DNA from: Conchocele bisecta
Taxonomy: Eukaryota; Mollusca; Bivalvia; Lucinida; Thyasiridae
NCBI GenBank assembly: GCA_029237695.1
Contig: CM055274.1
Coordinates: 68,934,828 to 68,998,827 of the forward strand
Reading direction: 5' to 3'
Length of the DNA stretch: 64,000 nt
Shown here: positions 7,793 through 61,442 of the stretch, one piece after another
Position numbering within the stretch: position 1 is the first letter of the stretch
Layout of the letters: the number at the start of each line of letters is the position of its first letter
Made by a program: the position numbers and the translations under genes
The notes under the pieces: model-generated
Databases searched by the model: none
Told to the model about the DNA's origin: nothing
What the model saw: only the letters and a program-made list of their open reading frames with translations

Positions 7793-10700
7793 TGAGAGGG
7801 TAACACATTTAGTTTTCACTAATCTTCCATGTGGCCCTCTATTATATACACACATGTATAACAGAGGCAAGAATTTAAACATGTTACATGTACAAAAATC
7901 ACAGAGTAAGGAAACAACAGGATATCATTAACCCATTGCATTCTAGGAATACACTACCTGGATGAAAAATATTAAATAACTTAATTTTCAACAAAACGGT
8001 TAAAAGAGTGGTAACAAAATATATTTTGGAAAATTAAAGAAAAACAAATTGTATTTAAATTTGATTGTAATAATTATGCCTAGTAATGTATTCTTAATGC
8101 AATGCTATAATGGATTTGAGGACATCTCTACACCAAATGTTTAATTACGTTGATCTGGGAAATTATGATAATGCCCCAAAGAGAAGTGAGAATGACAAAT
8201 GTGATCATACTTGACACCTTATGATGATAATTGTGAATTAGCAACATGACCCCATGTGGTTTGCATTTGATTACTAGTTAAGGAGCAGACTAACCAACAG
8301 ATACAAACATTTTGTTCTTACACTTAAACACACACTAAACATTGCACCCACATGAACCACACACACACACACGGGCGCACACACACTATTTTACAAGTAT
8401 TTACAAGGTCAGTTGACATGTATCAAATGGAAAATTAAAGACAATGCATATACATGTATCTATCTCCTGTAAACAAATGTAATTATTTTACCATCCATTT
8501 AATGAAATGACAATGAAAAGAGTCAATAGTTTTAACATGTTTTATGTCACTTGGCAAGCTATTCCATATAATTGGACCTGCATATGCAATGCTTTGTTTA
8601 TAAATCTCTTTATTAGGTCTGGGTAATATGAAGTTATGTGATGTTGCTGATCTCAGTACTGGCGCATTATTGACTTGATGTTTTATATGAAATAATTCGG
8701 AAATATAGTGTGGTGTTTCTGATTTAGATACTTTATACATTAACTTTGCTTTACGAAGATAAAGTCTCTCAAAGACGGTCAAAATTTTCAGTTGTTGCAT
8801 AGTTCTTGCTATATCATCAACATTGTAATCCATAATTATTTTGCATGCACGTTTCTGAAGTCTAAAAATTCTATTTAAATTTGTCTGTGATGTACCTCCC
8901 CAAACAATATTACATTAATCTATATGAGGTTGAATATATGTTTTATAAAACTGGATTCTAGATTCTATTGACAAATATTCCTTAATTCGTGATAAGAGCC
9001 ATAAATTGGATGAGATTTTCTTACAAGTTTTGTCTATGTGGACTGACCATGAGAGATTGTTGTCTACAACAACTCCTAATATTTTGTCATTTGAAATAGT
9101 GTTTAAATCATCATTTTTGAAATCTAGGTTTAAAGAAACAGATGGAAGAACAGTTCTTTTCTGATGTGTAGTTATTAACATTACTTTGGTATTTTTTGTA
9201 TTGATAAGCATTCCGTTGTACTGACACCAATCTGACAGGTTATTGATAGATTTTTGTAAATTATTTTCAATTTCCGTCTTGGATGAACCTATATCATAGA
9301 GAGTGGTATCATCTGCATATAGATCAGTGTTTACTATATCTGTGTAGAGGGGCAGGTCATTTATAAACATTAAAAATAATAGCGGTCCCAAAATGGATCC
9401 TTGGGGTACGCCATCGCATATTTCTTCACTTTGAGAAATGACATTGTTTACATATACTTTCTGCTTCCTATTTAATAAATATGATGAAAACCATGAAATT
9501 GCATTGTCACTTAGCTTATAGTGTTTCAGTTTCGTCAATAAGATTTTGTGATCAACAAGATCGAAGGCTTTTTTAAAATCTACCATCACTACTCCTACTA
9601 ATAATCCTTTATTTATAGCATCTAACCAGTTGCTAAGCATGCCCAATAATGCAGTTTCGCAAGAGTGTTTTGGCCTAAAGCCTGATTGCGTTTTATGTAA
9701 TAATTCATATTGTGTTAGAAAATGCATTAATGCGTCATGTACATGTATTTCGAGTATTTTTGAAAGAATTGGCAATATAGAGATTGCCCTATAATTGTTT
9801 ACATCATCTTTAGGACCACTTTTATGTAATGGCGAAACTTTACCTTCTTTCCATTTGTCAGGGAATACTGAGCTGTTAATACTCTGGTTGCAAATGTATG
9901 TGATGCTATCTATAACATGAGGTGCTGCAATTTTTAGTAGACGGGGGCCTATGTTATCTGAACCAGTTGCTTTACTAACATCAATATTTTTAAAAAATGT
10001 TTCAACCTGTTTTCTGGTAATTTCAGGAACCAGAAACTCTGTGTTTGGTGGAAGTTTGCTGTTACAGAATAACTTAAGTTTATCAAAGTTAGATGTTTTG
10101 ATTGGTTCTTTCAAAGTTGAGGCAATAGAGACAAAAAATTTGTTGAATTCGTTTGCAATATCACTGCAATTATCAGATTCGTTATCACCTATTTTCACAG
10201 ATGATACGGGTGTATTGTCTTTTCTTTTGTTAATTTTAATTTCTTTGAATATTTTCCATACATTACTAGGATCTTTACTATTTTCACTAATCATAGCTGC
10301 ATATTGTGACTTCTTTGATTCTTTTATAAGTGCAATAACTTTATTTCGCCACATCTTATACTGATGTTCCTCGCTTAATGATTTATATCTATCCCTTGTT
10401 TTAATAGCTTTAAGTATATCTGGAGTTAACTGTTGTTCACGTCTTACTCTTTGCGTTTTTAAAGGTAAATGTTTATCTACTACATTAAGAAACATAGACA
10501 GCCATGTGTCTACAGTTTCATTTGTGTCATCAAATATCTTAATGATGTCCCATGGTGTGGATGCCAAATCGTCTAGAAAGTCTTGTTCCTTAAATGTTTT
10601 AAAAGATATATGTTGCTATATAGCTTCTATTGGGGCTACCCATTCCGAATACAATTTATTGACCCGCACTTACACCTGTCCCATCCCATATCGACCGCGC

Positions 10701-13700
10701 ATGCGCGCACGAGAGACTTCCTCTTTGCTTTGGACGGCTGGCGTGAAAGTATCCTTTTTGGTGCTCATTTTCGTTTGGCTGTTTTATACACTCTATTCGT
10801 GGTTATTGTCCGTAAGTAGGCAATATCTTCTGTAATAGAGTGGGGGCTATTCATTTCTATAAGTTGCTAGTCGAAAATATTTCATTTTGAAAGTATTTCG
10901 ATTTTTTTTTCTTAGTGTGGCCACAGGGCGCGAACTTCGCGATTTTCCTATTGTCGGACGTTCCTATTGTCGACAAAGAAATTTTTATTTTTTATTTTTT
11001 TTTCGACTTTGTCTAGTTCGATATTTGAATAGGTTTTCCGTACCACGTTCACTAATGGGCTAAGGGAAACCTAAACCCAGTTCGGGTCAGGAAATTTGGT
11101 GTTGGTCACAAAACGGGAACTTGTGATTCTCATGAGATAATTTGTTTCCGTTGGTGCTAGATACATAACGGTTGCTCTAATGAGAAACTGGGCTTGTCTC
11201 AGGCCTTGGGGGCCTCTATGGAGGGGCCTGACCATTAGGTACTATCAGGGTAAGTATCAGGGTAAGTATCAATAAGTAAGATTCAGAAACTACAGTGGTT
11301 TCTGAGTCTGAGCCAAGTCCGAGTCCGAATAGTGGCAGGGTGTCTCTTATGACTGAGACATCCAACGTCGCTAGTTCTGCTCTGGGTGGTCCGCTACCCA
11401 CTGAGTAAGAACACCGGACGCCAGTCTGTGTTCGGCAAGATTCAGAAACTAAAGACTGTTTCTGAGTCTAGCCAAGTCCGAGTCCGAATAGTGGCAGGGT
11501 ATCTCTTATGACTGAGACATCCAACGTCGCTAGTTCTGCTCTGGGTGGTCCGCTACCCACTGAGTAAGAACACCGGACGCCAGTCTGTGTTCGGCAAGAT
11601 TCAGAAACTAAAGACTGTTCCGGACATGGACACCGGACACCAGTTCTGCTCTGGGTTATACGCTAACCACTGAGCAAGAACACAGGACACCAGTTAGGCT
11701 CTGGTTTATACGCTAACCGCCGAGCACGAACACCGGACACCGGTTCTGCTATGGGTTATACGCTAACCACTGAGCAAGAACGCCGGACACTAGTTATGCT
11801 CTGGGTTATTAGCTAACCACTGAGCACGAACACCGGACACGGGACAGGTAGATTCAAGGGGATAGGCGATGTGGGTTGTATACACGCAAATCCAATTGGG
11901 CGCGCCTCGGTGGAATGCAAGCGTATTCCTCCGGTCAACAGAGTGTCAAATATAGCCACTGATAACAGCGACGCTGGTCTTGACCACGCCCTTTTCAGCG
12001 GAATATCTGTTCAAGGTTATGGATATACAACAGTGTAACGGTATAGGACATGGCCTGCCGACACAGTGGATTAGTCCTGATGTGAGTCTGATGACGTCAG
12101 ACAGGAGGGCGCACGGACTTGTCGATCAGGACGGGTAGATCCGGGTCTAGTAGCAAGAGAGCTAGGTATAGGTCAACTTCCAGTAGCTCGTCTACCAGGA
12201 CGCGTGATTGTATATCCATGAAACACAAACGACGTTCTAGGTCGTGTCTAGGTACGATCATTCAAGTCGTCATAGGCATAGGGGAAGGGACCTCCTTCGG
12301 GAAGCGTTCCTTCAGGCCACGAATCTGTTTGGAAACAGATGTTCACAGGTGACTGCTGCTGATGCTGCAGTAAGACAGAGTCGGCAGTCAGCGAGACTAT
12401 CAGTGGTCTCTTTAGCCAAGCGGTTCGCTTATAGAAGCGCAACTCGGGCTGGAAAGGGGACATAAGCAAGCTTTAATATCCCCTTCTCCTAAACCAACGA
12501 GTGAGGTAACGGGTAGCTTTAAGCAACCCATAACACCTATACAGCCCCAATAGGGTGGGGCTCCCAGAGGGGCGCTACACGCATCAGAGATTGGCAATCT
12601 CCGAGCTTCTACAGCGTACGGTTTGTTGTACCAACAGACAGATCATTTCTAGATAGAGACGGCTCGATCGATACGTCTGACTATTAGAGTCAACGATTGG
12701 GCAGTCTCCAGCGAACCACAGGAAGGTTATCTTCATATACCGATATGCCATGCGTCCAGAAACTTTATAAGCTTTCAGTCGCAAGGCATGTTATAACAGT
12801 TTCGTGTCCTACCCTTCAGAACCACGGCGTTCACAAAACTAATAGTGGTAATATAGGCACAGTCCAGACCGTGTGTTATTGCATACTTCAATACTTGGAC
12901 GACTGGCTCTTGCACAATCAGTCTAGAGACACACTGCTACTCAAGCGGCGTTTGTTCTGGGATCTTATCACGGGGTTGTGTCTCAGGCCGAACATAGAGA
13001 TGTCGGAACTAGTACCGAAACAGGACATCTGATACGTAGGGATGAGTTTCCTTACCAGACTGGGGATAGTCAGGGTACACTTGGACAGTGCCGATATGTA
13101 CAGAGTAGACATCATGTTGCGTGTGATCTTCAAAGCTGTGTATCCACTTCAACTACCAGCCAGGGAGCTATTTTAGCTGCTAGGGTATTGAATTCAGAGG
13201 CAGATATGCGGTGTAGGTCGTCTACCAATGTACTGTGGACTACCTGTCGAGGGGGGCTCGAAAGTCCGTACCGAGGGGTCACCGTTTAGAACAGTGACCA
13301 ACGCGGTTATCAACAGGTAGAGCCACCCCTGGTTGGGTCTGTTTGCGACCATGATGGACAATCAGAGGCCAATGTATGTGTATCCAGTTCTGGACTAGGG
13401 GACATAGGCGGTGGGCGCATGTCCGTATCATGGAAATGAGCATACGGGTAAGCATTTCCACAATCAGTAAATTCGGGTCACACCATGCTGGCCAATGACA
13501 AGTTGGTTCTCCAGCATACTGGAACGTCTAGTGTACCATACGGTGGGCATTCCAGTGTTTCCCAAGCTTCTGTCACAGCATGCAGGGGGAACACTTCATG
13601 CGAATATGCTCGTTCTGATTCTTCACGTCTGCAGGCTATCAGGAAGGGAATCAGAAAGGACAAATTTTCGCGGCTAGCTACAGCAATCATTGCACAGGCA

Positions 13701-16700
13701 AAGACGCGAATGGGAGGTCTGTGTTAATTGCTGTAAGTAAGGCAAATTAATCCAGTCAGTCCAGCGGTAGGCGAAATGGGCGATTTCATTAAGTAATTGT
13801 TACGATGAAACGAAATAGTCAGCGTTGATTAGGACGGGTTACATGTAGGCATTGGCCAACTGTTTCAAGTTCACTTCAGTGCCGATATGTATCATAGGTT
13901 CAGACCCCAGTTATAAGCGCTGATTTCATTCTTCACTAGGAAAGACCAGTAGCTAGAATAGTTAACCCAAGGGAATCTAACAGTGGTTAGATGAGATTTA
14001 ACGAAAAATCAGTATGAGCCCATGGGACAGCTTCCCTCTTGATTGATCAGTCAAGAATGGGTCACTCCTCGTTTTCGCTTCGGCGAAAAGGCGGAGTGAA
14101 TTACGCGGCCTGTACAGGGGCGACCAGAATCTGGCTTGGATAATGATTCCGTTACTATGGTTGCGAAGCTGGATTCCTTGCTAAGGCTTGGGTCCCAGTT
14201 AGGCATAACCGACCGTTCGTGATCCCAGGCATGTCCAAATCGAGTCAGTTATCTGTGACATTATATACTTTACGTATTCTATAATGTACAATTGTCGTAT
14301 TTTAACTTGGTAAAAGCACATGCTTCCGGTTAATAACAACAACAATGTCAATAGATTAAAATTCATTCGCACTGATCCAGAATATGAGTTTATCTCTCGC
14401 CCAGCACGAACCTACCAAATTTAACCGAGACGGAAAACAAGTTATGCCCTGGCACATAGATCAAGGTCACGATCAGATGATAATGTGGGCTTCGTGGCGC
14501 AATCGGTTAAGACATTCGGCTAGATGATGGTGAATTTCATAAGACAAAATGCACCAGGCTTGTCAGGGGAAAAGGGCACTTCACCGGTACGGTGAATGTT
14601 AAAATCCTCTGATAGCATCAGGTGGGACTGGTCTCGGCAGCTAGTGTAGCTGTGGAAGAACAGTGCCCCATTCTTATCCGGAGGCAGTAGCTTCGGTATA
14701 CCAGTATCTGTCTCATGATAGTGGTCCTGTTTAACCTGCGCAGGTGCCGAGGGCTAAGTCTCTGTGTGAAGCAGAATAGGTTAATGCTTTCAAGGGTAGG
14801 CCTAGACTGCCTCAGACCCACACTGTAGGAGCTCTGTTAGAGGAATTGATTTGGCACAGGGTTTGACCCCAAAACTAAGTTGGATTTCTTAAAGCCAGTA
14901 CTTTTCTGGCACATCAGGGGCTCAAGTATTAGGTTATGCTTACATAAACTTGGCTCATAGAGTATTCGGCCTGGGAAAACAAGGCTCAGAGATGGGAGTA
15001 TCCAAGGCTTAGTTCCATAAGGCACGGACTTGTTTTGTGCAAGGCCAGAGCTTGGTGAATTAGGCACTACATCTCAATGACTAACCAATGAGAGGTAGGC
15101 ACTGGATTTTATTCCATGCGTGGGTAATCAGTTTATATCCAAATCGTCAGTTTACAGATGGATATCTCTCGCAACACGCAGAGCATATCGATCCAATTCG
15201 GTTAAGGGCTCATAAGGTTATAATCGATGCCCATGAGGTAGGTGCAGTAGTTACCTCCTCGGAGTTCCTCTATGGAGTGAGCCTGGGGATAAGATAATGG
15301 AAGTGGCATCAGGGAAGTCTCATTCCACTTTTATCAGTTTTACATACGTACACTGACTGCGCAGAGCGCAGATATTTACACATTGGATCCCCTAGTCGCG
15401 GCTAGCAGGGATGTCGCGGGGGACAAACATGTGTAAAAGGCTCAATTTTTTAGCCTGTTGTTATTCTGGGCCAGTGGATCTAGTCCAGGATAACAAATGG
15501 TTGGTATATTCACATTGGCAGTACAAAACGTTCTAGTTATCAGCTAGTTCAAGTTTTGTGCATGGAAAGTTTTCGTAGATTGTTTTCTTGATTACACATG
15601 ACTGGTTATGCCAGTCTGGATACATATTTTACTATAATGTGTGCAGTTGTTTGGTGTTACCAATGATTGTGAGATCCGGAGAGGGTAAAGGTGAGATACC
15701 TGTGCTCCAGGGTGCTAACGGTACTAGGTATCATGACACTCGAAAACACATAACCATTCATCCAGGGTCATGAATGCCATGTTTGGTAATTATTGATAGT
15801 ATGTGGGTGTCAATATGCATAGGGTATTTTATGTTTGCATTACTATTTGTGAGTAATGTGGGTTAGAACTTTAAGAGACTTGTGGACATGGACAAGGGTC
15901 AGTGTAGATGCTGTGAGTCTTAGATGTGAGGCACAACAGTGTGTATGACATGACGCTAACATGATATGAGTTAGTCACATTCAGTGCGGGTGAAACTGCG
16001 ACTGGGGACAGTACTCAAGCAGACCAGAAGACTTAGCTGGCGGATCAGTTATCTTCTGGGAGCAGGAATAGGGGGGGGGGGGGGGGCTGCTCAGACGGTG
16101 CCCGGGTCTAGTCTACAAGTTTGGTGAGTCAATTTATTGATCCTAGGTTAAGTATTCACAGAGCGAATTTATTTATTTTTCTGGTTTCTGTATCACCTTA
16201 CCTTCCCGCCTTGGAGACAAATTGTAGCAACATATAACGGGGAAGTATGATACAGAAATCAGAATTTTTCAATGTAAAATTAGTTTCTGTGAGTACTTAC
16301 CTGTTATATGTATTTAACACCCGCCTCCCACCCCGCAAGAGATTTGTTCTATCGCAAAGAGGAAGTCTCCCGTGCGCGCATGCGCGGTCGATATGGGATG
16401 GGACAGGTGTAAGTGCGGGTCAATAAATTGTATTTGGAATGGGTAGCCCCAATAGAAGCTATATAGCAACATATAACAGGTAAGTAGTAGTATATAGGGA
16501 GTCAAAATGATACCACCAAAGCTGGAAGCGTTATTGACTCTCATTAACAGCTCCCAACGGTATCGAAAAACGGTGTTTTTGTCCAAAAACACAAACTAGT
16601 CACCAACACTGAAATATTTTAAAACGCGAAACCGTCTCGTTGTACGCCCACCATATATAGTGAAAAAAATTTGAAATTGAGATTGAAAATAATGGCTTCA

Positions 16701-19700
16701 AAAAAGAAGACGAACAAAAGTACTCACCAGCACCCTCGAAAAACGGGCTTTTTGCATAGAGAAAAGCAGAATGATACCACCAGAGGTGGCACCGTTTCCA
16801 CCACCACACGACACTCCCAACACCCACGAAAAATCGGGAACGGATTTCAGAAAAACCCAAATACATCGAACTACAACAAACTACAGGAACTACAACCAAC
16901 ACAGACGAACGACAGATAGAACTTGTCGTAGAAGAAATTCGCCTCCCAAGAGGCAAACAGAAATGATACCACCCATTTGTGTATTTGGACACAGAAATGA
17001 TACCACCCATTTGTGTATTTGGACACATTTGGGAAACGGGTTGGAAAAATCCAATAAACAAAAGTACTCACCAGCACCCTCGAAAAACGGATTTTTTGTG
17101 TAGAGAAAATCAGAATGATACCACCAGAGGTGGCACCGTTTCCACCACCACACAACACTCCCAACACCCACGAAAAATCGGGAACGGATTTCAGAAAAAA
17201 CCCAAATACATCGAACTACAACAAACTACAGGCACTACAACCAACACAGACGAATGACAGATAGAACTGCGTACGAGAACAATCTCGTTCTACTATTTCT
17301 TCTGGTGTAGCTCTCGGAAGCAGGACTCCGCTATTTTTCTTTTGCGTTTTTCTGTCTCTAGGGACGCCTGTAGTTCCGCAACCTGGCTTTCTAGTTCAAC
17401 AACCCGGCTTTCTAGTTCGGCAGTCTGGAGTTGTGTTCTCCAGGGTGCGGTACACCGTTTCTGTTTGTGTCTGCAAAGCGTCTGGGAACTGGAGAAATTT
17501 TTTCCACAACCTTCGCACAGGAATGCAGGAGTACTGCATGTCGTCTTTCTCCCGATGTGCCGTTGCAAGTTGGCCTTCTTGGCAAAAGTTCTACCACACG
17601 TTTCGCATTCCATTTTCCCAATAGTATTTTTCTGTTCAAATGGGAAAATCACAAGAATTTTTTGTCTCCCAAGAGGCAAACAGAAATGATACCACCCAAT
17701 TGTACACATTCGGACTTTTGGGAAAAGTGTAGAAAAAATTTGTCTCCCTAGAGGCAAACAGAAATGATACCACCCATTTGGACACATTTGGGAAAAGACA
17801 ACTCGAACAAAGAAAGAAGGACAACTCGAACAAAGAAGAAAGACAACTCGAAAGACAATTCGAACAAAGAAGGAAAGACAACTTGGAAAAACCTCTCTAG
17901 AATTGGGTCGAGAAACCCACAATTGGGACACGAGTATACACAACTGGACACGATATCCACAATTGGACTGGTAGTACAAAAGACGACGTTTGGTCCAATA
18001 GTGGATGGGGGTTCTAGTCCATTCTGCACGGAGCCACAATTTTTGGAGGATTCCCCTACCTCGTCTCGTCTCGCCTCGCCACATCCACAATCGGACGCCC
18101 ATTTGAAGATATGGGACCCCATTGGAATAGACTACAACTAGCCATGCCATACAAGGAATGCGAGACATGCGGAAAGGGCTTCGACAAGCCCACAAATCTT
18201 CGAAGATACATGGGTCGCAAGAACCCGTGCAGACCTCCCACGAGAGAGTGTCCCAGATGTGGAGGGAAGTTTGCCACCTACAAGACTCTCTGGCAACATC
18301 GCTCGAACAGGTGTCCCGAGGGGCCAGAAGATAGAACCACGGAGGGTGGCAAGAAGGCTGCGACCAGGAAGAGGATCCTGGTACTGGAGAGGAGGGTGGT
18401 AGAGTTGGAGGAGGAGGTGGCTAGACTGCGGGATGGAAAACCTCGCAAGGGAGCGAGACACGAGAACGACGGCGACGACGAGATCGATTGGGCAGATCTC
18501 GATCTGTAGAGAGAGGGGGATTCCCCACTTTTTGCACTGGCCAGTTTACCCCCATCTCGACTCCCAACGGCAAACAAAACACCAGAAAACCTCTCCCCAA
18601 AGTAGGTAGAACAATGATACCACCCAATTGTCCACATTTGGTCTTTTGGGAAAGTCGAAGAAAAATCGTCTCCCAAGAGCAAAACAAGATCTAAACCACA
18701 TCGAAAAACAGAAAACCTCTCCCAAAGGAGGTAGAACGGAAAGAAAGACAACTCGGTACAGAACAAGAAAGACAACTTGGAAAGACAACTCGGAAAGACA
18801 ATTCGAAAAAGACTAAGAACTTTTGTCCAAAACGAGCAGCGACAAAGAACTTTTTTTCAAAATGGCTGCTGCATGTAGAACGGGTCGCGACTACCAGAGT
18901 GCTGGTGTACGGAGTCGCTAGTTTCGTTTTTCCCATTTGGCGTACCGGACTGTTTTGCGGAGTGCACAAACTGGGCGTCGGGGTCTGTTTTCTTCTTCCA
19001 GAGGCTATGGGCCTCTAGAGACACGAATGGGAACAGTGGTTTGCAAACCGCGTACACCACCACAAATACCCCTGTACCTGCATTCGCAACCAAACCAATG
19101 ATGCAGGTGGGATAACGCAAAAACGCAAACTTCAAAATGGGAAGAGTGACTGGATTTAATGGTGTATCGCAATTCGCAAATGTCATCAATTTACATCCAT
19201 CAAACACGTCAAAACTCTGTGGCCATTTTGTCTTAATTACGCAGAAAATCGCAAATTGACGATAATTAAATGTCTCGTGTTGAACGTTCGGCCAACGATT
19301 TCGCAAAGGGCCAAGTTTAATCCAAGGGGAAGAACTCCAACACAATTATTGACACCAGCGTGTTCGGACTTTATGTAAAGTGTGGACTGGTTTCTCAAAC
19401 GCAAGTTGCTACAGTTACAACCCCAATCCACCACTTTGCATTCTCTACGGTTTTCCAAATGTCGTGCACCTCCAGATCGTCTTGCTTCTTTGGACACTCG
19501 GAATCGCTGGAAACCGAGTCCAACAGTTTGTGTTCCAGGGCGCCCAAACGTATCTCCATGTCCAACAGTTTGCGGTCCAAACGTCTCTCCAGGTCGAACA
19601 AGCGCGTAGATTCTTCGAACGAGCTGGCATCTTCTAGTAGATCTGTGGGGAACTCGGTGGGAGGTGGGTTCCCAATCTCGATTGGATGTTCTTCTAGGGG

Positions 19701-22700
19701 TTCTTCGGGCTTTGTACTACGGTCTACATCGGCATTGTCCCATATTTTTCGAAGTCTAGCACTACCGATCCCGTACTTCTTTTTGATTTCGTCGGCTGTA
19801 GTCTTCCCACAGGTGGAAATAATTTCTAGAATATTTTTCGGAGACAAGTAGGTTTTTGGCATGCCTACAAACGCTTCTATCTACATGGGCAACATGTGTC
19901 CAACATGGAATTCCCAAATTGCTCGAGATGTTCAAAATACTTGCTCGAGGTGTTCGAAAAGGGCAAAATGCTTGTTCGCGACTACCACAGTGCTCGGGAT
20001 TCTCCTGGGCGGGAGAGTATGTTCCCCAGGATTCCTATCCTGTCTATCCTAGTGGGTAGAGGAGGAGAATCCCGAGCACTGTGGTAGTCGCGAACAAGCA
20101 TTTTGCCCTTTTCGAACACCTCGAGCAAGTATTTTGAACATCTCGAGCATTTTGGGAATTCAATGTTGGACACATGTTGCCCATGTAGATAGAAGCGTTT
20201 GTAGGCATGCCAAAAACCTACTTGTCTCCGAAAAATATTCTAGAAATTATTTCCACCCGTGGGAAGACTACAGCCAACGAAATCAAAAAGAAGTACGGGA
20301 TCGGTAGTGCTAGACTTCGGAAAATATGGGACAATGCCGATGTAGACCGTAGTACAAAGCCCGAAGAACCCCTAGAAGAACATCCAATCGAGATTGGGAA
20401 CCCACCTCCCACCGAGTTCCCCACAGATCTACTAGAAGATGCCAGCTCGTTCGAAGAATCTACGCGCTTGTTCGACCTGGAGAGACGTTTGGACCGGAAA
20501 CTGTTGGACATGGAGATAACGTTTGGGCGCCCTGGAACACAAACTGTTGGACTTGGTTTCCAGCGATTCCGAGTGTCCAAAGAAGCAAGACGATCTGGAG
20601 GTGCACAACATTTGGAAAACCGTAGAGAATGCAAAGTGGTGGATTGGGGTATTTGTGGTGGTGTACGCGGTTTGCAAACCACTGTTCCCATTCGTGTCTC
20701 TAGAGGCCCATAGCCTCTGGAAGAAGAAAACAGACCCCGACGCCCAGTTCGTGCACTCCGCAAAACAGTCCGGTACGCCAAATGGGAAAAACGAAACTAG
20801 CGACTCTGTACACCAGCACTCTGGTAGTCGCGACCCGTTCTACATGCAGTAGCCATTTTGAAAAAAAGTTATTTGTCGCTGCTCGTTTTGGACAAAAGTT
20901 CTTCGTCTTTTTCGAATTGTCTTTCCGAGTTGTCTTTCCAAGTTGTCTTTCTTGTTCTGTACCGAGTTGTCTTTCTTTCCGTTCTACCTCCTTTGGGAGA
21001 GGTTTTCTGTTTTTCGATGTGGTCTACATCTTGTTTTGCTCTTGGGAGACGATTTTTCTTCGACTTTCCCAAAAGACCAAATGTGGACAATTGGGTGGTA
21101 TCATTGTTCTACCTACTTTGGGGAGAGGTTTTCTGGTGTTTTGTTTGCCGTTGGGAGTCGAGATGGGGGTAAACTGGCCAGTGCAAAAAGTGGGGAATCC
21201 CCCTCTCTCTACAGATCGAGATCTGCCCAATCGATCTCGTCGTCGCCGTCGTTCTCGTGTCTCGCTCCCTTGCGAGGTTTTCCATCCCGCAGTCTAGCCA
21301 CCTCCTCCTCCAACTCTACCACCCTCCTCTCCAGTACCAGGATCCTCTTCCTGGTCGCAGCCTTCTTCTTGCCACCCTCCGTGGTTCTATCTTCTGGCCC
21401 CTCGGGACACCTGTTCGAGCGATGTTGCCAGAGAGTCTTGTAGGTGGCAAACTTCCCTCCACATCTGGGACACTCTCTCGTGGGAGGTCTGCACGGGTTC
21501 TTGCGACCCATGTGTCTTCGAAGATTTGTGGGCTTGTCGAAGCCCTTTCCGCATGTCTCGCATTCCTTGTATGGCATGGCTAGTTGTAGTCTATTCCAAT
21601 GGGGTCCCATATCTTCAAATGGGCGTCCGATTGTGGATGTGGCGAGGCGAGACGAGACGAGGTAGGGGAATCCTCCAAAAATTGTGGCTCCGTGCAGAAT
21701 GGACTAGAACCCCCATCCACTATTGGACCAAACGTCGTCTTTTGTACTACCAGTCCAATTGTGGATATCGTGTCCAGTTGTGTATACTCGTGTCCCAATT
21801 GTTGGTTTCTCGACCCAATTCTAGAGAGGTTTTTCCAAGTTGTCTTTCCTTCTTTGTTCGAATTGTCTTTCGAGTTGTCTTTCTTCTTTGTTCGAGTTGT
21901 CCTTCTTTCTTTGTTCGAGTTGTCTTTTCCCAAATGTGTCCAAATGGGTGGTATCATTTCTGTTTGCCTCTTGGGAGACAAATTTTTTCTACACTTTTCC
22001 CAAAAGTCCGAATGTGTACAATTGGGTGGTATCATTTCTGTTTGCCTCTTGGGAGACAAAAAATTCTTGTGATTTTCCCATTTGAACAGAAAAATACTAT
22101 TGGGAAAATGGAGTGCGAAACGTGTGGTAGAACTTTGCCAAGAAGGCCAACTTGCAACGGCACATCGGGAGAAAGACGAGATGCAGTACTCCTGCATTCC
22201 TGTGCGAAGGTTGTGGAAAACATTTCTCCAGTTCCCAGACGCTTTGCAGACACAAACAGAAACGGTGTACCGCACCCTGCAGAACACAACGCAGACTGCC
22301 GAACTAGAAAGCCGGGTTGTCAAACTAGAAAGCCAGGTTGCGGAACTACAGCGTCCCTAGAGACAGAAAAACGCAAAAGAAAAATAGCGGAGTCCTGCTT
22401 CCGAGAGCTACACCAGAAGAAATAGTAGAACGAGATTGTTCTCGTACGCAGTTCTATCTGTCATTCATCTGTGTTGGTTGTAGTGCCTGTAGTTTGTTGT
22501 AGTTCGATGTATTTGGGTTTTTAGCTCACCTGAGCGAAGCTCATGTGAGCTATTGTTACCGCAATATGTCCGTCGTCCGTCGTCGTCGTCGTCCGTGAAC
22601 ATTTTCAAACGTCTTCTCCTCGGTAACCATTGGGCCTATGGTCACCAAACTTCATGGTCATGGTCCTTAGGTAGGGGGATTACAAAATTGTTAAAATGAC

Positions 22701-25700
22701 GTCATTACGTAATCCAAGATGGCCGCCGTCTAAAAATAGCACAAATTCTTAAAAAATCTTCTTCTCAAGAACCGCCAACTGGATTTCGACAAAACTTGGT
22801 AGGAATGATCGATGTACATTGCTCTTTCAAAGTTGTTAAAATGGTGACCCTGGGGTCAAAAATGGGCGTTGCCCATGGGGTCAAATTGGGGTCAAATTTT
22901 ATTTTTGACTGAATATGGTCATTTCATATATATCAAATTGAAGGTATCAATGAGACGATCACTCTGGTGCATTTTCTGTCGAAATCGGATTGTTATGTCA
23001 TCCAAGATGGCCGCCAAAAGGTCAAAAGGTTGTTCTTTTATTAGAGATTTCAAAATTCTTCTTCACATGAACCGCTTGGCCCATGGTAGCCAAACTTAAA
23101 AGTTATGGTCCATGGGTGAAGCCTTTTCAGATTTGTTAAAATGGAGGTCATCGCTAATCCATGATGGCCGCCGTCTAAAAATAGCATAAATTCTTAAAAA
23201 ATCTTCTTCTCATGAACCGCTAGCCGGATTTCGACGAAACTTGGTAGGAATGATCGATGTACATTGCTCTTTGAAAGTTGTTAAAATGGTGACCCCTGGG
23301 TTAAAAATGGGCGTGGCCCGTGGGGTCAAATTGGGGTCAAATTTTATTTTTGACTGAACTTGGTCATGTCATATATCAAATTGAAGGTATCAATGAGGCG
23401 ATCACTCTGGTGCATTTTCTGTCGAAATCGGATTGTTATGTCATCCAAGATGGCCGCCGAAAGGTCAATAGGTCGTTCTTTTATTAGAGATTTCAAAATT
23501 CTTCTTCACATGAACCACTTGGCCCATGGTAGCCAAACTTAAATGTTATGGTCCATGGGTGAAGCCTTTTCAGATTTGTTAAAATAGAGGTCATTGCTAA
23601 TCCAAGATGGCCGCCGTCTAAAAATAGCATAAATTCTTACAAAATCTTCTTCTCATGAACCGCTAGCCGGATTTCGACGAAACTTGGTAGGAATGATCGA
23701 TGTACATTGCTCTTTCAAAGTTGTTAAAATGGTGACCCCGGGATCAAAAATGGGCGTGGCCCAGTGGGGTCAAATTGGGTCAAAGTCAAATTTATTTTTG
23801 ACGAATATGGTATGTCATATATCAAATTGAAGGTATCAATGAGGCGATCACTCTGGTGCATTTTCTGTCGAAATCGGATTGTTATGTCATCCAAGATGGC
23901 CGCCGAAAGGTCAAAAGGTCGTTCTTTTATTAGAGATTTCAAAATTCTTCTTCACATGAACCGCTTGGCCCATGGTAGCCAAACTTAAAAGTTATGGTCC
24001 AAGTGTGAAGCCTTTTCAGATTTGTTAAAATGGAGGTCATCGCTAATCCAAGATGGCCGCCGTCTAAAAATAGCATAAATTCTTAAAAAATCTTCTTCTC
24101 ATGAACCGCTAGCCGGATTTCGACGAAACTTGGTAGGAATGATCGATGTACAATGCTCTTTCAAAGTTGTTAAAATGGTGACCCCGGGGTCAAAAATGGG
24201 CGTGGCCCGTAGGGTCAAATTTTATTTTTGACCGAATATGGTCATGTTATATATCAAATCGAAGGTATCAATGAGGCGATCACTCTGGTACATTTGTTGT
24301 CCAAATCGGATTGTTATTTCATCCAAGATGGCCGCAGAAATGTCAAAAGGTCGTTCTTTTATTAGAGATTTCAAAATTCTTCTTCACATGAACCGCTTGG
24401 CCCATGGTAGCCAAACTTAAAAGTTATGGTCCATAGGTGAAGCCTTTTCAGATTTGTTAAAATGGAGTTCATCGCTAATCCAAGATGGCCGCCATCTAAA
24501 AATAGCATAAATTCTTCAAAAATCTTCTTCTCATGAACCGCTAGCCGGATTTCGACGAAACTTGGTAGGAATGATCGATGTACATTGCTCTTTGAAAGTT
24601 GTTAAAATGGTGACCGCGGGGTCAAAAATGGGCGTGGCCCGTGGGGTCAAATTGGGGTCAAATTTTATTTTTGACTGAATATGGTCATGTCATATATCAA
24701 ATTGAAGGTATCAATGAGGCGATCACTCTGGTGCAATGTTTGATTTTTAACGTCTTTTTCTCAGGAACCACATGGCCGATGCTGGGTGAAGCATTTTCAG
24801 ATTTTGTAAAATGAGAGTCATCGCTTAATCCAAGATGACCGCCATCTAAAAATAGCACAATTTTTTTAAAACACATGAACTCAATGTCACATTCTCCTCT
24901 GGTGTTCATGGAGTCAGGTGAGCGAATTAGGGCCATCATGGCCCTCTTGTTCTGAAATTCGTTCCCGATTTTTTGTGGGTGTTGGGAGTGTTGTGTGGTG
25001 GTGGAAACGGTGCCACCTCTGGTGGTATCATTCTGATTTTCTCTACACAAAAAATCCGTTTTTCGAGGGTGCTGGTGAGTACTTTTGTTTATTGGATTTT
25101 TCCAACCCGTTTCCCAAATGTGTCCAAATACACAAATGGGTGGTATCATTTCTGTGTCCAAATACACAAATGGGTGGTATCATTTCTGTTTGCCTCTTGG
25201 GAGGCGAATTTCTTCTACGACAAGTTCTATCTGTCGTTCATCTGTGTTGGTTGTAGTGCCTGTAGTTTGTTGTAGTTCGATGTATTTGGGTTTTTCTGAA
25301 ATCCGTTCCCGATTTTTCGTGGGTGTTGGGAGTGTCGTGTGGTGGTGGAAACAGTGCCACCTCTGGTGGTATCATTCTGCTTTTCTCTATGCAAAAAGCC
25401 CATTTTTCGAGGGTGCTGGTGAGTACTTTTGTTCGTCTTCTTTTTTGAAGCCATTATTTTCAATCTCAATTTCAAAAAATTTTCACTAAATATGGTGGGC
25501 GTACAACGAGACGGTTTCGCGTTTTAAAATATTTCAGTGTTGGTGACTAGTTTGTGTTTTTGGACAAAAACACCGTTTTTCGATACTGTTGGGAGCTGTT
25601 AACGAGAGTCAATAACGCTTCCAGCTTTGGTGGTATCATTTTGACTCCCTATATACTACTTAAGTACTCACAGAAACTAATTTTACATTGAAAAATTCTG

Positions 25701-28700
25701 ATATTGGTTTGCTATTGAACATCCATCCATATGTACATTCTTGGTCATTTACGTCAAAAGAGCCTGTAAGAGTTTAATTACCATGTCATAACTTCTATAT
25801 ATGACTTAAAAGGATTACGGTACTATAATATTCGGACACTTGATACATGTGGAAATAACCAACATGCTATCCCCAGTAACTTTAATGCTTTACAATGCTT
25901 TACAATGCTTTACAATGCTTTTACAATGCTTTACAATGTTTAACCTTCATAAGGTTGCATTTAACTATTTTTTTGTAGCGCCCGCTTGTGGACAGCGGGA
26001 TAGAGTCGGCACATTGGCGTCCGGGTTAAAGTTTTTGGTTAAAGTTTTTCGGTATACTATCAAAGCCTCAACGGGCACGATATGCAGGCCGCGGCCATCT
26101 AGTTTGTACACACTGTGGGTGTCCTTTTTATATGTGACTGATTGCTGATACCTTTAAAAAAATATTTATTCAGCTGGGTGCACATTCATCTGGCATTCTG
26201 TGGGCAGTTAGTCGGGAACAAGCAAAGGGTAAATAAAAAAATAAATCCTCTGGTTTCTACATGAGAGCTTTCACCCCTCAATATCCAACATTTGCTGCGC
26301 CATGCTATTTTTTGTCTTCTCTATTATGATAGTATTAATGAGAAAATGTAGAGACTTTAATACGTATTACGTTTTACTGCGGGGCTGGCGAGCGGGCGGC
26401 TGACAGAAAAGCTGCATAGTTTGTGTACGCAACTCCACTGAAACCGTTTAGTCAATCGATATGAAACTATACACATGTCTTCTACACATATGATATTGAA
26501 GATGTTCACCTTGGTGTTTTTATGCCGAAAAAATATTTTTAACAAGAATATCACCTTTTTAACATTTTTAGCCAGGTTTTTTTTTTAAAAATCCAGGCTA
26601 TTGGATTGGCGAAAGCCGGGCGGGCGGGCGGGCGGGCGGCGTCCACAATCAATGTTAAGTTTTCGTGTTTGAGTCCATTTCTTTGTTACTGTACCACCTA
26701 GGACCACCAACTTTCACAGCTTCATAATCAAGGGGTGCCCACCACATATCACTATCCAACATGTTACTTGTTTTTTAACTTGACCCATTTTTTCCGCGCA
26801 GTCGTCTTAGCCATTTTCAATGTTAAGTTTTCGTGTTTACAATGTTAAGTTTTCGTGTTTAAGTCCATTTCTTTGGTACTGTACCACCTAGGACCACCAA
26901 ACTTTCACAGCTTCATAATCAAGGGGTGCCCACCACATATAACTATCCAACATGTTACTTGTTTTTTAACTTGACCCATTTTTTCCGCGCAGTCGACTTA
27001 GCCATTTTCAATGTTAAGTTTTCGCGTTTACAATGTTATGTTTTCGTGTTTAAGTTCATTTCTTTGGTACTGTACCACCTAGGACCACCAAACTTTCACA
27101 ACTTCATAACCAAGGGGTGCCTACCACATACAACTATCCAACATGTGACCATTTTTTTTACCTTCTCCTATTATTTCTACGTACATGTAATTGACTTAGC
27201 CATTTTCAACGTTAACTTTTTAACGTACGTCTGGTTAAAGTTTTTTGGTTAAAAGTTTTTCGTTATACTCTGCAACTGCTTCGCCCATTACCTTGAAACT
27301 TCACATGGGTGTTTATCATCATCCATATTTTCATTCTAACCCCCAACCGTGCGGCCCCTGTGCCCAATGTCAAGGTCAAATTACTTTGAATTGTTTTGTT
27401 AAAGTTTTTTCGTGTACTATGTCTCTGCAACTGCTTCATCCATTACCTTGATACTTCACATGGGTGTTTATCATCATTGTCACACCCGCTTGCGGAAAGC
27501 GTGATATCGTCGGCATTTTGGCATATGTCCGTCCATCCGTCCGTCCGTCCGTCCGTACGTACGTCCGTGTGTCCGGTTAAAGTTTTTCCATCTGCTATAT
27601 CTATTTTTTTAGTGTCCATGCCTCGCCCCAAGGCGCGACATGCAGGCCACGGCCATCTAGTCTACAAAAGTGGGTATAATTATGTTATCCAAGTGTCTAT
27701 GCTTGGAAAAAACCTGGCCTTCGTGGCTTTGCCTCGTTTCTTGTTGTATTCAATTCTATATAGGGTACAGAGTTTGTGTACACAGCTCCTCTGAAACTGT
27801 TCAGTCAATCGATCTGAAACTATACACACGTCTGCTACACATATTGAAGATGTGCACCTTGGTGTTTTTATGGCGAAATTTAAAAAAAAAAAAATATCAC
27901 CTTTTTAACTTAGCTATTTTTCCTACATATTTGTATCCAATTCTATATAATTTCTACTTTACACATCTCTACCTAAATTGGTATACCTGTTTATCCCAAC
28001 AAGAGGAAGAAATAATGCTATAGATTTTCAAATTCTCATTAATGTTTTTTGCCTTGGTGACAGCTTCACATTTCTGCATCTTCGCTGTCTGGCCCATCTT
28101 CGACGGGCGTATTTTGCGACTTACAGCACTCTTGTTTAGCGTTTTGCAATACTAACAAATGCTGCAGATCCTGATGCGATAACTCGTTAGGAGCCGGATC
28201 ATCTGGAGTTACAGTATTTGTGCAGCTCCTGATGAGACGGCTCATTAATAGCTGGCTCATCTGGATCTACAGTGTTTGCAATTGTTGGCTTTATGGTATG
28301 TATGGTTGAAAAGGTTAATTATGCACACATTGTTGCCCCCACATGTTGAAGTATGGTCTGCTGTGTAAAGGGTTGATCATGGCCACATTGTCGCCCCCAG
28401 GATGCGAACTTCAGCACGGCCCTGGAGTTGGCGGTGAGGTTCGGGAAGACCCTGATCATCCAGGAGGTCGATGGTGTGGAGCCGGTCCTCTATCCACTGT
28501 TGAGGGGCGACCTCACATCTCAAGGTCGGTATAGTCAGTAGTTATAGAATAGGCAATAGCTCAATTGATGTGGGTCCCATCTTGCAATGGTTTGGTAAAC
28601 AAGCATAACTGTATATCGTTATTTCAGATCATGCTGTGTTGCCCAAGATTAGCATTCAAATTTCCATATGTCTTGGCGAACTGCTGATGGGTACCCATAA

Positions 28701-37700: not shown

Positions 37701-40700
37701 GCAGATGTCCGAAGGTACAAAATCACATGACATGTCTCATATTTGAACAGTGTATCATATCAAGCCGTCTCATCAGGATCCAGTCCAATTTGTGAATGTA
37801 TTTTTTATCACAAAATCATCCTTTTTCAATTAATGGAATACATGTAGAATGAAAATTAAGATGGAAGTCCATTACAGATAATTTAGGATGGAATAGTAGT
37901 GTTGTTAAACATTTGTCAGATAGATTGAAAGCATTCTCATGCTCTATTTCTATACAGTATAATATGCCACCCATTTACACCATCATATCTGCCATGCATC
38001 TGTTGTTTCATTACGTGGTAGGAGTGGGAGGCATTTACCGGCATGATTGTGGCTGACGTGAAGTCCGACGCGGGCAGGAACCTTCCCAGCTGGATAGAAC
38101 CAGACAGGACCCAGGCCGTCGCCAGTCTCAAGGTCAGTATTGTCGTTCAAAGGTAAATTCAGGCTGATGCTAGTTAACTCATAGGAATTCTGAGGCTTGC
38201 AGAGGAATTTCTGCTGTTTCAAAAGACTCCAGCATGGTATTCTATTTATCAGGTAACTTTTTTGTCCCGCCCTCTTGTGGACAGTGCGATATAGTCGGGT
38301 ACATTGGTGTACGTATGTACGTATGTACGTATGTACGTATGTACGTATGTACGTATGTACGTACATGTCTCCGAGTTAAAGTTTTTGGTTATAGTTTTTT
38401 TTTTGGGTTAACGTTTTTTGGAAACTATCAAGGCCTCAGCAGGCACGACATGCGGGCCACGGCCATCTCGTATGCTAGAGGACGTCATTCGATAATGTCA
38501 TCTGATGCCGTTCGTTCAATGGAATGTCAGCGAGTAGTTTTGATCTGGATATGCGTATCTTGTCCATGCAGAATGTGATAATTTGTCAGTCCATGTGTGA
38601 TCGAATGCAGAGTGAGTTACCGATATATCGCTATATTACCTGGCTGTTGAATGATTTTTACACCCATTTCCCATTTCCTAGACATCCCCCGGAGGTTGTG
38701 ATGGTATGTGTATATTAATGATGCTCTAGGATTCATATCTTAACCCTTTCAACACCACAGACCTGCATAGTGGTATTGGTAAAAAGTGTGGATCCAGATG
38801 AGCCGGCTTGTAATGAGCCGTCTATTTTTGACAGAAAAAACACCCTTTTTCATGAATGGACTGGTATGAAAATCAGTTTGTGACGATTGGATTGGTTGCA
38901 AAATTAACATCAAAATCCATTCCAGTTACTTGGGGGGTGAATGGGTTAATGGTGAATCTTGCTGGAATTCACATCTGGTGCTATGTGATCGGGTAGTTTG
39001 TCAGTGAGAAAAGTTTTTATTGTAATTTCAGTGTCTATGACTTTAGTTGTCTGTATATGACATTGAATGGATGTCAGACCCCAATAAATTGATAAACCTT
39101 CAGTCAAACCTACCGAGATTCTACCAAGCGCTGAGCCTGGATGACGGCAGTACGTGGTCCAACTTCTCGCGGAGCAGTCAGTGTGAGCAGGAGGTGCCGT
39201 CCACCGTGGAGAAGAGAATCTCGCAGTTCCAGCAGGTTCTACTGGTCCAGGCTGTCCGACCTGACAGACTGCAGAGCGCCATGAGCCTGTTCGCCTGTCG
39301 CTCGCTAGGTACGCTCGTCTTGTTTAACTCTATCTATTCACGTGCTACACCACTGCCTGTGCTACTTTTGCCAATATTTGTCCATTCTTTTATTAGCTCA
39401 CCTGAGCGAAGCTCATGTGAGCTATTGTTACCGCAATGTGTCGTCCGTCGTCGTCCGTCGTCGTGCGTGAACATTTTCAAACGTCTTCTCCTCGGTAACC
39501 ATTGGGCCTATAGTCACCACTTCATGGTCATGGTCCTTAGGTTGGGGGATTACAAAATTGTTAAAATGACGTCATTACGTAATCCAAGATGGCCACCGTC
39601 TAAAAATAGCACAAATTCTTCAAAAATCTTCTTCTCAAGAACCGCTAACCGGATTTCGACAAAACTTGGTAGGAATGATCGATGTACAATGCTCTTTCAA
39701 AGTTGTTAAAATGGTGATGGTAAAAAATGGGCGTGGCCCGTGGGGTCAAATTGGGGTCAAATTTTATTTTTGACCGCATATGGTCATGTCATATATCAAA
39801 TCGAAGGTATCAATGAGGCGATCACTCTAGTGCATTTTTTGTCAAAATCGGATGGTTATGTCATCCAAGATGGCCGCCGAAAGGTCAAAAGGTCGTTCTT
39901 TTATTAGAGATTTCAAAATTCTTCTTCACATGAACCGCTTGGCCCATGGTAACCAAACTTAAAATTTATGGTCCATGTGTGAAACCTTTTCAGATTTGTT
40001 AAAATGGAGGTCATCGCTAATCCAAGATGGCCGCCGTCTAGAAATCTCATAAATTCTTAAAAAATCTTCTTCTCATGAACCGCTGGCCGGATTTCGACTA
40101 AACGTATAAATGATCGATTTACAATGCTCTTTCAAAGTTGTGAAAATGGTGACCCCGGGGTCAAAAATGATTATAACATCCATGATGGCAGCCAAAAGGT
40201 CCATTTATTCGAGATTTTGAACTTCTTTTTCTCAGGAACCACATGACCGATGCTGGCCAAACTTCAAAGGAAGTTAAGATCCTTGGGTGAAGCATTTTCA
40301 GATTCGGTAAAATGAGAGTCATTGCTTAATCCAAGATGACCGCCATTTAAAAATAACACATGAACTCAATGTCACATTCTCCTCTGGTGTTCATGGAGTC
40401 AGGTGAGCGAATTAGGGCCATCATGGCCCTCTTGTTTCAACATACTTCAATATTGTACTTGAAATCAAGCAGCTTGATTGGTTGAGCCTGAGCTGTGGCA
40501 CATCTCAGGCTCAACCGATCAAGCTGCTTGATTGTGAGTTGAGAGCGTCAGTAGATTTCCAACAAGCTTAACGCAGGCGGTTGTGTAGCTGATATATGGC
40601 ATTTCACATGTTGTTAGTTGGGTTTGCTTGATGTCGGGCTATTCTACATGGATTCAAATATACCACTGGCTCATAAAATGCCTACCACACATGCTGTTCA

Positions 40701-58700: not shown

Positions 58701-61442
58701 TCTCGATATAAATAATCCGTTCTGATGTTGGGATTTTCCTCCCAATGCAGCAGGTTAAATACAGGATCCAACCCGTTGGCCCAGCCTTAAATGACCTTAG
58801 CTATTGATAGGCCATTAAACACCAACAAACAAACAAACAAACAAACAAACAAACAAACAAAATAGTCATTTTTGTACGCCTGTTTGAAAAAATGGGACGT
58901 ATTATGTATGCATCTTGTACGGGCGGGCGGGCGTTCACAGCTTGTCCACGCAATAACTAGTCTACTTGACGGATTGTAACCAAATTTGGTATACATGTTT
59001 ATCACGGCAAGACTAAGAAGCCTATTGATTTTGAAAAATTTCCGATGACATATCTCCCCTTGGCGGCCATTTTTTTATTTTCACACTCTGTATCCTTGTC
59101 CACGCAATAACTCAAGTTATGCTTCACCATTCGTAACCAAATTCGGTATACATGTTTATCACGGCAAGACGAAGAAGCCTATTGATTTTGAAAATGTTTT
59201 GATGACTTACCTCCCCTTGGCGGCCATTTTTAGCTCACCTGAGCGAAGCTGATGTGAGCTATTGTTACCGCAATGTGTCCGTCATCCGTCGTCGTCCGTC
59301 GTCGTCCGTCCGTGAACATTTTCAAACGTCTTCTCCTTGGTAACCATTGTGCCTATAGTCGCCAAACTTCATGGTCATGGTAGGGGGATTACAAAATTGT
59401 TAAAATGATGTCATTACGTAATCCAAGATGGCCACCGTCTAAAAATAGCACAAATTCTTCAAAAATCTTCTTCTCAAGAACCGCCAACCGGATTTCGACC
59501 AAACTTGGTAGGAATGATCGATGTACAATGCTCTTTCAAAGTTGTTAAAATGGTCACCCCAGGGTCAAAAATGGGTGTGGCCCGTGGGGTCAAATTGGGG
59601 TCAAATTTTATTTTTGACCGAATATGGTCATGTCATATATCAAATCGAAGGTATCAACGAGGCGATCACTCTGAAATCGGATTGTTATGTCATCCAAGAT
59701 GGCCGCCGAAATGTCAAAAGGTCGTTCTTTTATTAGAGATTTCAAAATTCTTCTTCACATGAACCGCTTGGCCCATGGTAGAAAAACCTAAAAGTTATGG
59801 TCCATGGGTGAAGCATTTTCAGACTTGTTAAAATGGAAGTCATCGCTAATCCAAGATGGCCGCCGTTTAAAATAGCATAACTTCTTAAAAAATCTTCTTC
59901 TCATGAACTGCTTGCCGGATTTCGACAAAACTTGGTAGGAATGATAGATGTACAATGCTCTTTCAAAGTTGTTAAAATGGTGACCGCGGGGTCAAAAATG
60001 GGCGTGGCCCGTGGCGTCAAATTGGGGTCAAATTTTATTTTTGATCTAATATGGTCATGTCTATATCAAATCGAAGATATCAAAGAGGCGATCCGCTCTG
60101 GTACATTTTTTGTCGAAATTGGATGGTCATGTCATCCAAGATGGCCGCCGAAAGGTCAAAAGGTCGTTCTTTTATTAGAGATTTAAAAATTCTTCTTCAC
60201 ACGAACCGCTTGGCCCAATGTGGCCAAACTTCACAGTTATGGTCCATGGGTGAAGCCTTTTCAGATTTGTTAAAACTGAGGTCGTCGCTAATCCAAGATG
60301 TCCGCCATCTAAAAATAGCACAAATTCTTAAAAAATCTTCTCATGACCCGCCGGCTGGATTTCGACGAAACTTGGTAGGAATGATTGATGTAGAATGCTC
60401 TTTCAAATGTGTTAAAATGGTGACCCCGAGGTCAAAAATGGGCGTGGCCGAATATGCTCATGTCATATATCAAATTGAAGGTATCGATGAGGCGATTGCT
60501 CTGTTGCAATATTTGTCGGAATCGGATGATTATGTCATCCATGATGGCCGCCAAAAGGTCCATTTATTTGAGATTTTGAACTTCTTTTTCTCAGGAACCA
60601 CATGGCCGATGCTGGCCAAACTTCATAGTAAGTTAAGATCCTTGGGTGAAGCATTTTCAGATTTGGTAAAATGAGTCATCGCTTAATCCAAGATGACCAC
60701 CATCTAAAAATAGCACAATTTTTTAAAACACATATGAACTCAATGTCACATTCTCCTCCGGTTTTCATGGAGTCAGGTGAGCGAATTAGGGCCATCATGG
60801 CCCACTTGTTTATTTTCCCACTCTGTATCCTTGTCCACGCAATAACTCAAGTTCTACTTCACTAATTGTAACCAAATTTGGTATACATGTTTATCACGGC
60901 AAGATGAAGTAGCCTATTGATTTTGAAGAATTTCTGATGACTTATCTCCCCTTGGCGGCCATTTTTAATTTTCGCACTCTGTATCCTTGTCCACACAATT
61001 ACTTGGTTTAATGGTGATAATTCAGTTGTCCGGTGAAAATACAGAAATATGGTAAAATAAAGTGCAACCTCTCTAATCCAGACACCAAGAAAATATATCT
61101 GATCTAATTTTGAGAAGTTTCTTGGTAATACATCTCAGATAATAATGCATGTTCATGATTGCGAAAGACTTAAGTGTGTCCCAGAATGGTCATACGCAAA
61201 TTTCAGTGAGATACAGTGGAACATCACTAAACCGGACACCCCGGGGACCTCCCAGGGTGTCTGGTTTAGTTATTTCAGTTGAGAACTGATTGTAAAACTT
61301 TCTGAACATAATACTCTGTGCTCGTGCTGGAAATCAGTAAATTTGATTGAGACTGAGCTGAATATGAAATACAAACCCCTTCCATAACAAAATGCATCCA
61401 AATACACTGTTCTTGTGATATATAGATTTTGGGATCCCCCCC

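Follow-up and report, generated by a model that had tools for sequence, protein, structure and literature searches.

The stretch of DNA analysed here, a 64-kb window of the bivalve Conchocele bisecta (assembly GCA_029237695.1, contig CM055274.1, positions 68,934,828 to 68,998,827), contains a head-to-head palindrome at 16486-25660 that probably derives from one end of a Polinton/Maverick element. The left arm (16486-20006, plus strand, 3521 bp, with a later 347-bp insertion and its 5-bp duplication counted in) starts with AGTAGTATATAGGGAG, the right arm (20063-25660, minus strand, 5598 bp, with a later 2424-bp insertion counted in) ends with CTCCCTATATACTACT, and an unpaired centre of 56 bp lies between them at 20007-20062. 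Without the later insertions each arm measures about 3.17 kb and the whole palindrome about 6.4 kb. The arms pair at 97-99% per block, and the outer termini, AGTAGTATATAGGG...CCCTATATACTACT, are each adjoined by TAAGT (16481-16485 on the left and 25661-25665 on the right). An inverted copy of the empty target site, with a single TAAGT, is found at 16258-16316 (minus strand). Given this outer duplication and the empty site with one TAAGT, the palindrome was inserted as a single unit. This bears out a first-pass annotation of the window, which had described a 9.2-kb near-perfect palindrome moved as one unit, with arms head to head around a 56-bp centre and the unoccupied target readable in inverted form nearby.

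Results

Long palindromes are a recognised assembly risk, and an inverted chimeric read or a fold would be an artefactual source of such a structure. However, the 347-bp insertion (19073-19419, TGTA...TACA, resembling a solo long terminal repeat and flanked by its own duplication, ACCCC) is private to the left arm, the 2424-bp insertion (22523-24946, plus strand, tandem units of about 445 bp) is private to the right arm, and 38 substitutions separate the two arms. Together with the outer duplication and the empty site, these differences mean that the window palindrome is not an assembly fold. Comparable palindromes with different duplications are also present on other contigs, and we regard an artefact as already contradicted and barely credible. 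The fold of the 56-bp centre is unexceptional (z -1.7 as DNA); a special cloverleaf was considered and rejected, given that 13 of 200 shuffles fold equally well, as do 26 of 334 stretches of arm sequence matched for GC.

Each arm bears three genes. The first lies at 17293-17613 (minus strand; PF00096, 1.1e-10) in the left arm and at 22108-22425 (plus) in the right, and the second at 18144-18509 (plus) and 21209-21577 (minus), the latter with a relative, P0001, that is 78% identical. The third, X, is split by the 347-bp insertion in the left arm (18863-19862, minus; P0002 is 41% identical to the 19398-19862 piece) and has a frame shift near 20519 in the right arm (20207-20852, plus). We read its product as a helix-turn-helix protein with a coil and a probable transmembrane stretch; a fold model of its relative P0002 is confident only in the N-terminal helix-turn-helix. 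Pfam, PHROGs and PDB profiles gave no match to X below E 0.001, and a search of BFVD with the P0002 model gave none. Among the 17 open reading frames (ORFs) of at least 150 aa that overlap the palindrome there is no Pfam match to polymerase B, integrase, ATPase, protease or capsid, in line with the earlier remark that the expected replication and capsid genes are absent. No recognisable transposase was found among the palindromic ORFs of the window, nor any Pfam match to the P superfamily (THAP).

The arms also share an internal repeat, AATGATACCACC, which occurs eight times pointing inward in each. In the left arm (16506-18624, plus) the copies start at 16506, 16770, 16962, 16996, 17114, 17685, 17763 and 18613; in the right arm (21094-25640, minus) their 5' ends are at 25640, 25376, 25184, 25150, 25032, 22036, 21958 and 21105. 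All 16 exact copies in the 64-kb window are inside the palindrome, and outside it there are no copies with one mismatch and three with two.

We searched the host assembly (1.89 Gb, 1196 contigs) with the first 315 bases of the window element and scored 40 of 626 first-look candidates; the counts are lower bounds. The element end has at least 63 genome matches. At least 40 of these cover all or almost all of its length, and those 40 fall in 30 loci. Of the 30 we looked at 21, made up of the window, nine loci whose ends are paired and eleven more: within the stretch fetched, both ends are visible in 12 and one end only in 9 (L028-L034, L036 and L038). A 5-bp target duplication fits all 12 two-ended copies. 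It is exact in ten (TAAGT, GAACA, GTTTG, GATTG, ACATT, ATTTA, GTGTT, ACAAC, GTCTG and GGGGC) and has one mismatch in L025 (CGCAC/CGCGC). For L037 it is CCATT on both sides by eye, if two changed bases count as element; the scripted score of 0/5 reflects an element start set two bases too far in. Flank identity over 6 bp is only 0-3 of 6 in the two-ended copies, and a 6-bp duplication minus one base, considered for the window, was rejected because the other copies fit 5 bp too. AGTAGT is present at both ends in 10 of the 12 complete copies, the left ends of L020 and L037 being altered.

The complete copies differ in shape. Four are nearly whole palindromes: the window copy, L035 (arms of 2968 and 2973 bp, centre 58), L025 (centre 160) and the gene-less L037 (centre 64). 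Another four (L019, L022, L023 and L027) are partly inverted, with 71-83% in inverted blocks, and four (L020, L021, L024 and L026) are asymmetric, with 19-60%; the window itself scores only 70% by this measure, with its later insertions present and the central block uncounted. In L020, an asymmetric complete copy of 5847 bp with GTTTG duplicated, two further long frames, P0003 and P0004, replace the second arm (L020:2750-5500), and neither has a family match. A likeness of P0004 to a rolling-circle Rep was an impression only and is not claimed, as it has no Pfam match and nothing telling in PDB.

The first-pass annotation had suggested searching the assembly for this end and asking whether its copies are always palindromic or flank a long unit with core genes. 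The search gave the family described above; the copies are not always palindromic (4 of 12 are asymmetric), and core-like genes do stand beside the end at one locus. On contig C5, the family end borders 18 kb that hold an integrase-like ORF, a polymerase-B-like ORF and an ATPase resembling A32, and carries relatives of the three genes of the window arm in unchanged order, the window arm and the C5 copy diverging by 2.55% over 2535 bp. The retroviral-type integrase (L042:5189-5968, minus) matches PF00665 at 2.4e-6 (28.2 bits, below the cut-off of 32.6), and the same ORF matches the NCBIfam IS481 transposase at 8.7e-7, also below cut-off. The A32/FtsK-type packaging ATPase matches PF04665 at 5e-10 (39.7 bits, cut-off 22.8). 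The polymerase-B-like ORF was recognised by eye from the motifs GNSCCGK and DTDS and has no Pfam or PDB match; nor has P0006, an ORF of 456 aa at this locus that was considered for a jelly-roll capsid protein. No target-site duplication was found at C5, where the flanks are ATTGG and GGCGG and the far end is rearranged. In the far end, a 32-bp terminus is followed by its own inverted copy (93.5%), forming a 66-bp hairpin, and then by a C run (L043:3842-3907).

What the far end of C5 has in common with the right end is about 32 bp and a 33-bp patch rather than 3 kb. This bears on the possibility that internal deletion removed the entire core of a Maverick whose terminal repeats were 3 kb long, leaving the two repeats around a 56-bp remnant and involving no fold-back synthesis. 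The family does have inverted repeats of varied length, and a deletion ending within one repeat would yield a short centre. However, a long repeat is no feature of the core-bearing copy seen, and several independent events with a near-symmetric result would be required; we consider core deletion very improbable.

Arm divergence within palindromes is 0.64% in L035, 1.08-1.69% in the window (two blocks), 2.52% in L025 and 5.43% in L037, and between copies it is 2.55-10.5% (ten comparisons, in which L037 is paired with the window alone, at 8.70%). Since the arms within a palindrome are closer to each other than the compared copies are, one arm of each was probably copied from the other shortly before insertion. 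Through L036, the centre of the window palindrome is related to that of L035. Six copies have a single X arm beside a recognisable centre, in one orientation in L036, L030 and L026 and in the other in L021, L038 and L023 (L032, with a centre and no X, was left out of this count).

These centres could also belong to a separate family of transposons whose 3-kb terminal repeats bear genes, and in which the palindrome is the inherited body plan, short-repeat copies have lost an arm, and the C5 Maverick has captured or shares the end. Related centres in the window, L035, L036, L038, L021, L023, L030 and L026 (the last by eye) fit such a family, and three X arms in each orientation are what loss of one or the other arm from an older palindrome would produce. 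However, a flipping hairpin centre would likewise yield both orientations, and an inherited body plan does not sit well with the probable recent copying of arms, with palindromic ORFs that lack a recognisable transposase, or with core-like genes beside the same ends elsewhere in the genome. We think a separate family unlikely.

A second palindrome, on contig C1, has arms at least about 10 kb long around a centre of about 1.5 kb (L044:1156-2678) and spans L034:8912-10000, L041, L044 and L046 (C1:205062588-205083676). Its outer ends were not found; a family end lies on the contig some 8.7 kb beyond the mapped arm. Both arms contain P0006-like, ORF214-like and ATPase-like genes, and hence palindromes seem to form repeatedly and at more than a single place.

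The surroundings of the window palindrome are themselves repetitive. The 22523-24946 insertion, which we take to be Helitron-like, has relatives at 1-934, 39389-40436 and 59227-60810; these repeats start with AGCTCACCTGAGC, carry a GGGCCATCATGGCCC hairpin near the 3' end and sit at T runs with no clear duplication. The palindrome's target (10607-16485 plus 25661-25702) is apparently the right end of an element whose termini are inverted and which has an inverted copy of its end inside it, an arrangement as in DIRS-like elements. Three short ORFs there have no Pfam match. A 566-aa reverse transcriptase frame (PF00078, 1.5e-27) lies at 8915-10615 on the minus strand.

Discussion

We propose, with a probability of about 0.74, that the palindrome arose when one Polinton/Maverick end folded back on itself, and was then integrated in trans. 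The shared ends, the core-like genes at C5 and the near-identical arms favour this origin, which the first-pass annotation had put forward, as one of two readings, in the form of a Polinton-like end palindromised and then inserted whole. The absence of the centre sequence from the C5 copy counts against it. A replication step would form the palindrome: fold-back synthesis by way of a hairpin intermediate would give near-identical arms, both orientations of the centre and native ends on each side, and the asymmetric copies would be palindromes minus one arm. The three-base terminal repeat (AGTAGT) resembles the repeats at which protein-primed polymerases jump back.

The palindromes suggest that Maverick-type elements can shed self-folding satellite forms. 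More tentatively, Mavericks might produce snap-back hairpin satellites: folding at a fixed site beside X would make one end into a self-complementary molecule that has native ends on both sides and a centre that flips, spread by the enzymes of the parent. With three regulatory genes in double dose, such a satellite could act as a built-in parasite or brake, a defective-interfering genome kept in host chromosomes. Mavericks are thought to replicate via protein priming, and we know of no observed Maverick replication intermediate. An integrated palindrome family whose members keep native ends would be a physical record of replication by fold-back and of integration in trans, making the Maverick replication mode and interfering satellites testable questions. 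AATGATACCACC is offered as a defined candidate end signal, with possible binders.

The passages of PMC8097293 used here give (AGT)2//(ACT)2 or (AG)3//(CT)3 as Polinton/Maverick ends, with AGTAGT//ACTACT the most frequent end motif of vertebrate Mavericks. The window palindrome, AGTAGT...ACTACT, has the (AGT)2//(ACT)2 form, and C5 resembles the elements described there in placing accessory genes between the end and a core with integrase-like, A32-like ATPase and polymerase-B-like ORFs. In contrast, the palindrome holds two copies of one end region head to head without core genes, has a 5-bp duplication rather than the 6 bp given for Mavericks in the sources as excerpted, and, once later insertions are set aside, is about 6.4 kb long as against 12.7-24.6 kb (PMC8097293). 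Polinton-like viruses, as the excerpts of PMC12220804 and PMC7805220 portray them, are likewise integrated, with terminal inverted repeats and duplications of 5-6 bp (5-7 bp), but are 14-40 kb long and have core genes, capsid genes among them. The stem 'palindrom' is absent from the main text of PMC12220804. By analogy, the nearest counterpart in combining long repeats and numerous internal binding sites is the Foldback-like Galileo, which in the portions of PMC3688188 drawn on here has long inverted repeats, several internal binding sites and non-autonomous copies, but is a P-superfamily element with a THAP transposase, whereas our element has three genes per arm and Maverick-like ends. Aimed literature searches, with subscription journals mostly outside their coverage, listed no published report of a palindromic Maverick derivative among their matches, and 'Non-autonomous Polinton/Maverick' phrases gave no match.

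In protein-primed viruses such as adenovirus, defective palindromic genomes mirror one end, have two native ends and could be replicated by a helper. Unlike these, the palindrome is integrated in a genome and is known here from sequence alone. Given that it has no core genes and a duplication of 5 bp, not 6, the palindrome itself is not a Maverick; it works like a helper-dependent Maverick derivative.
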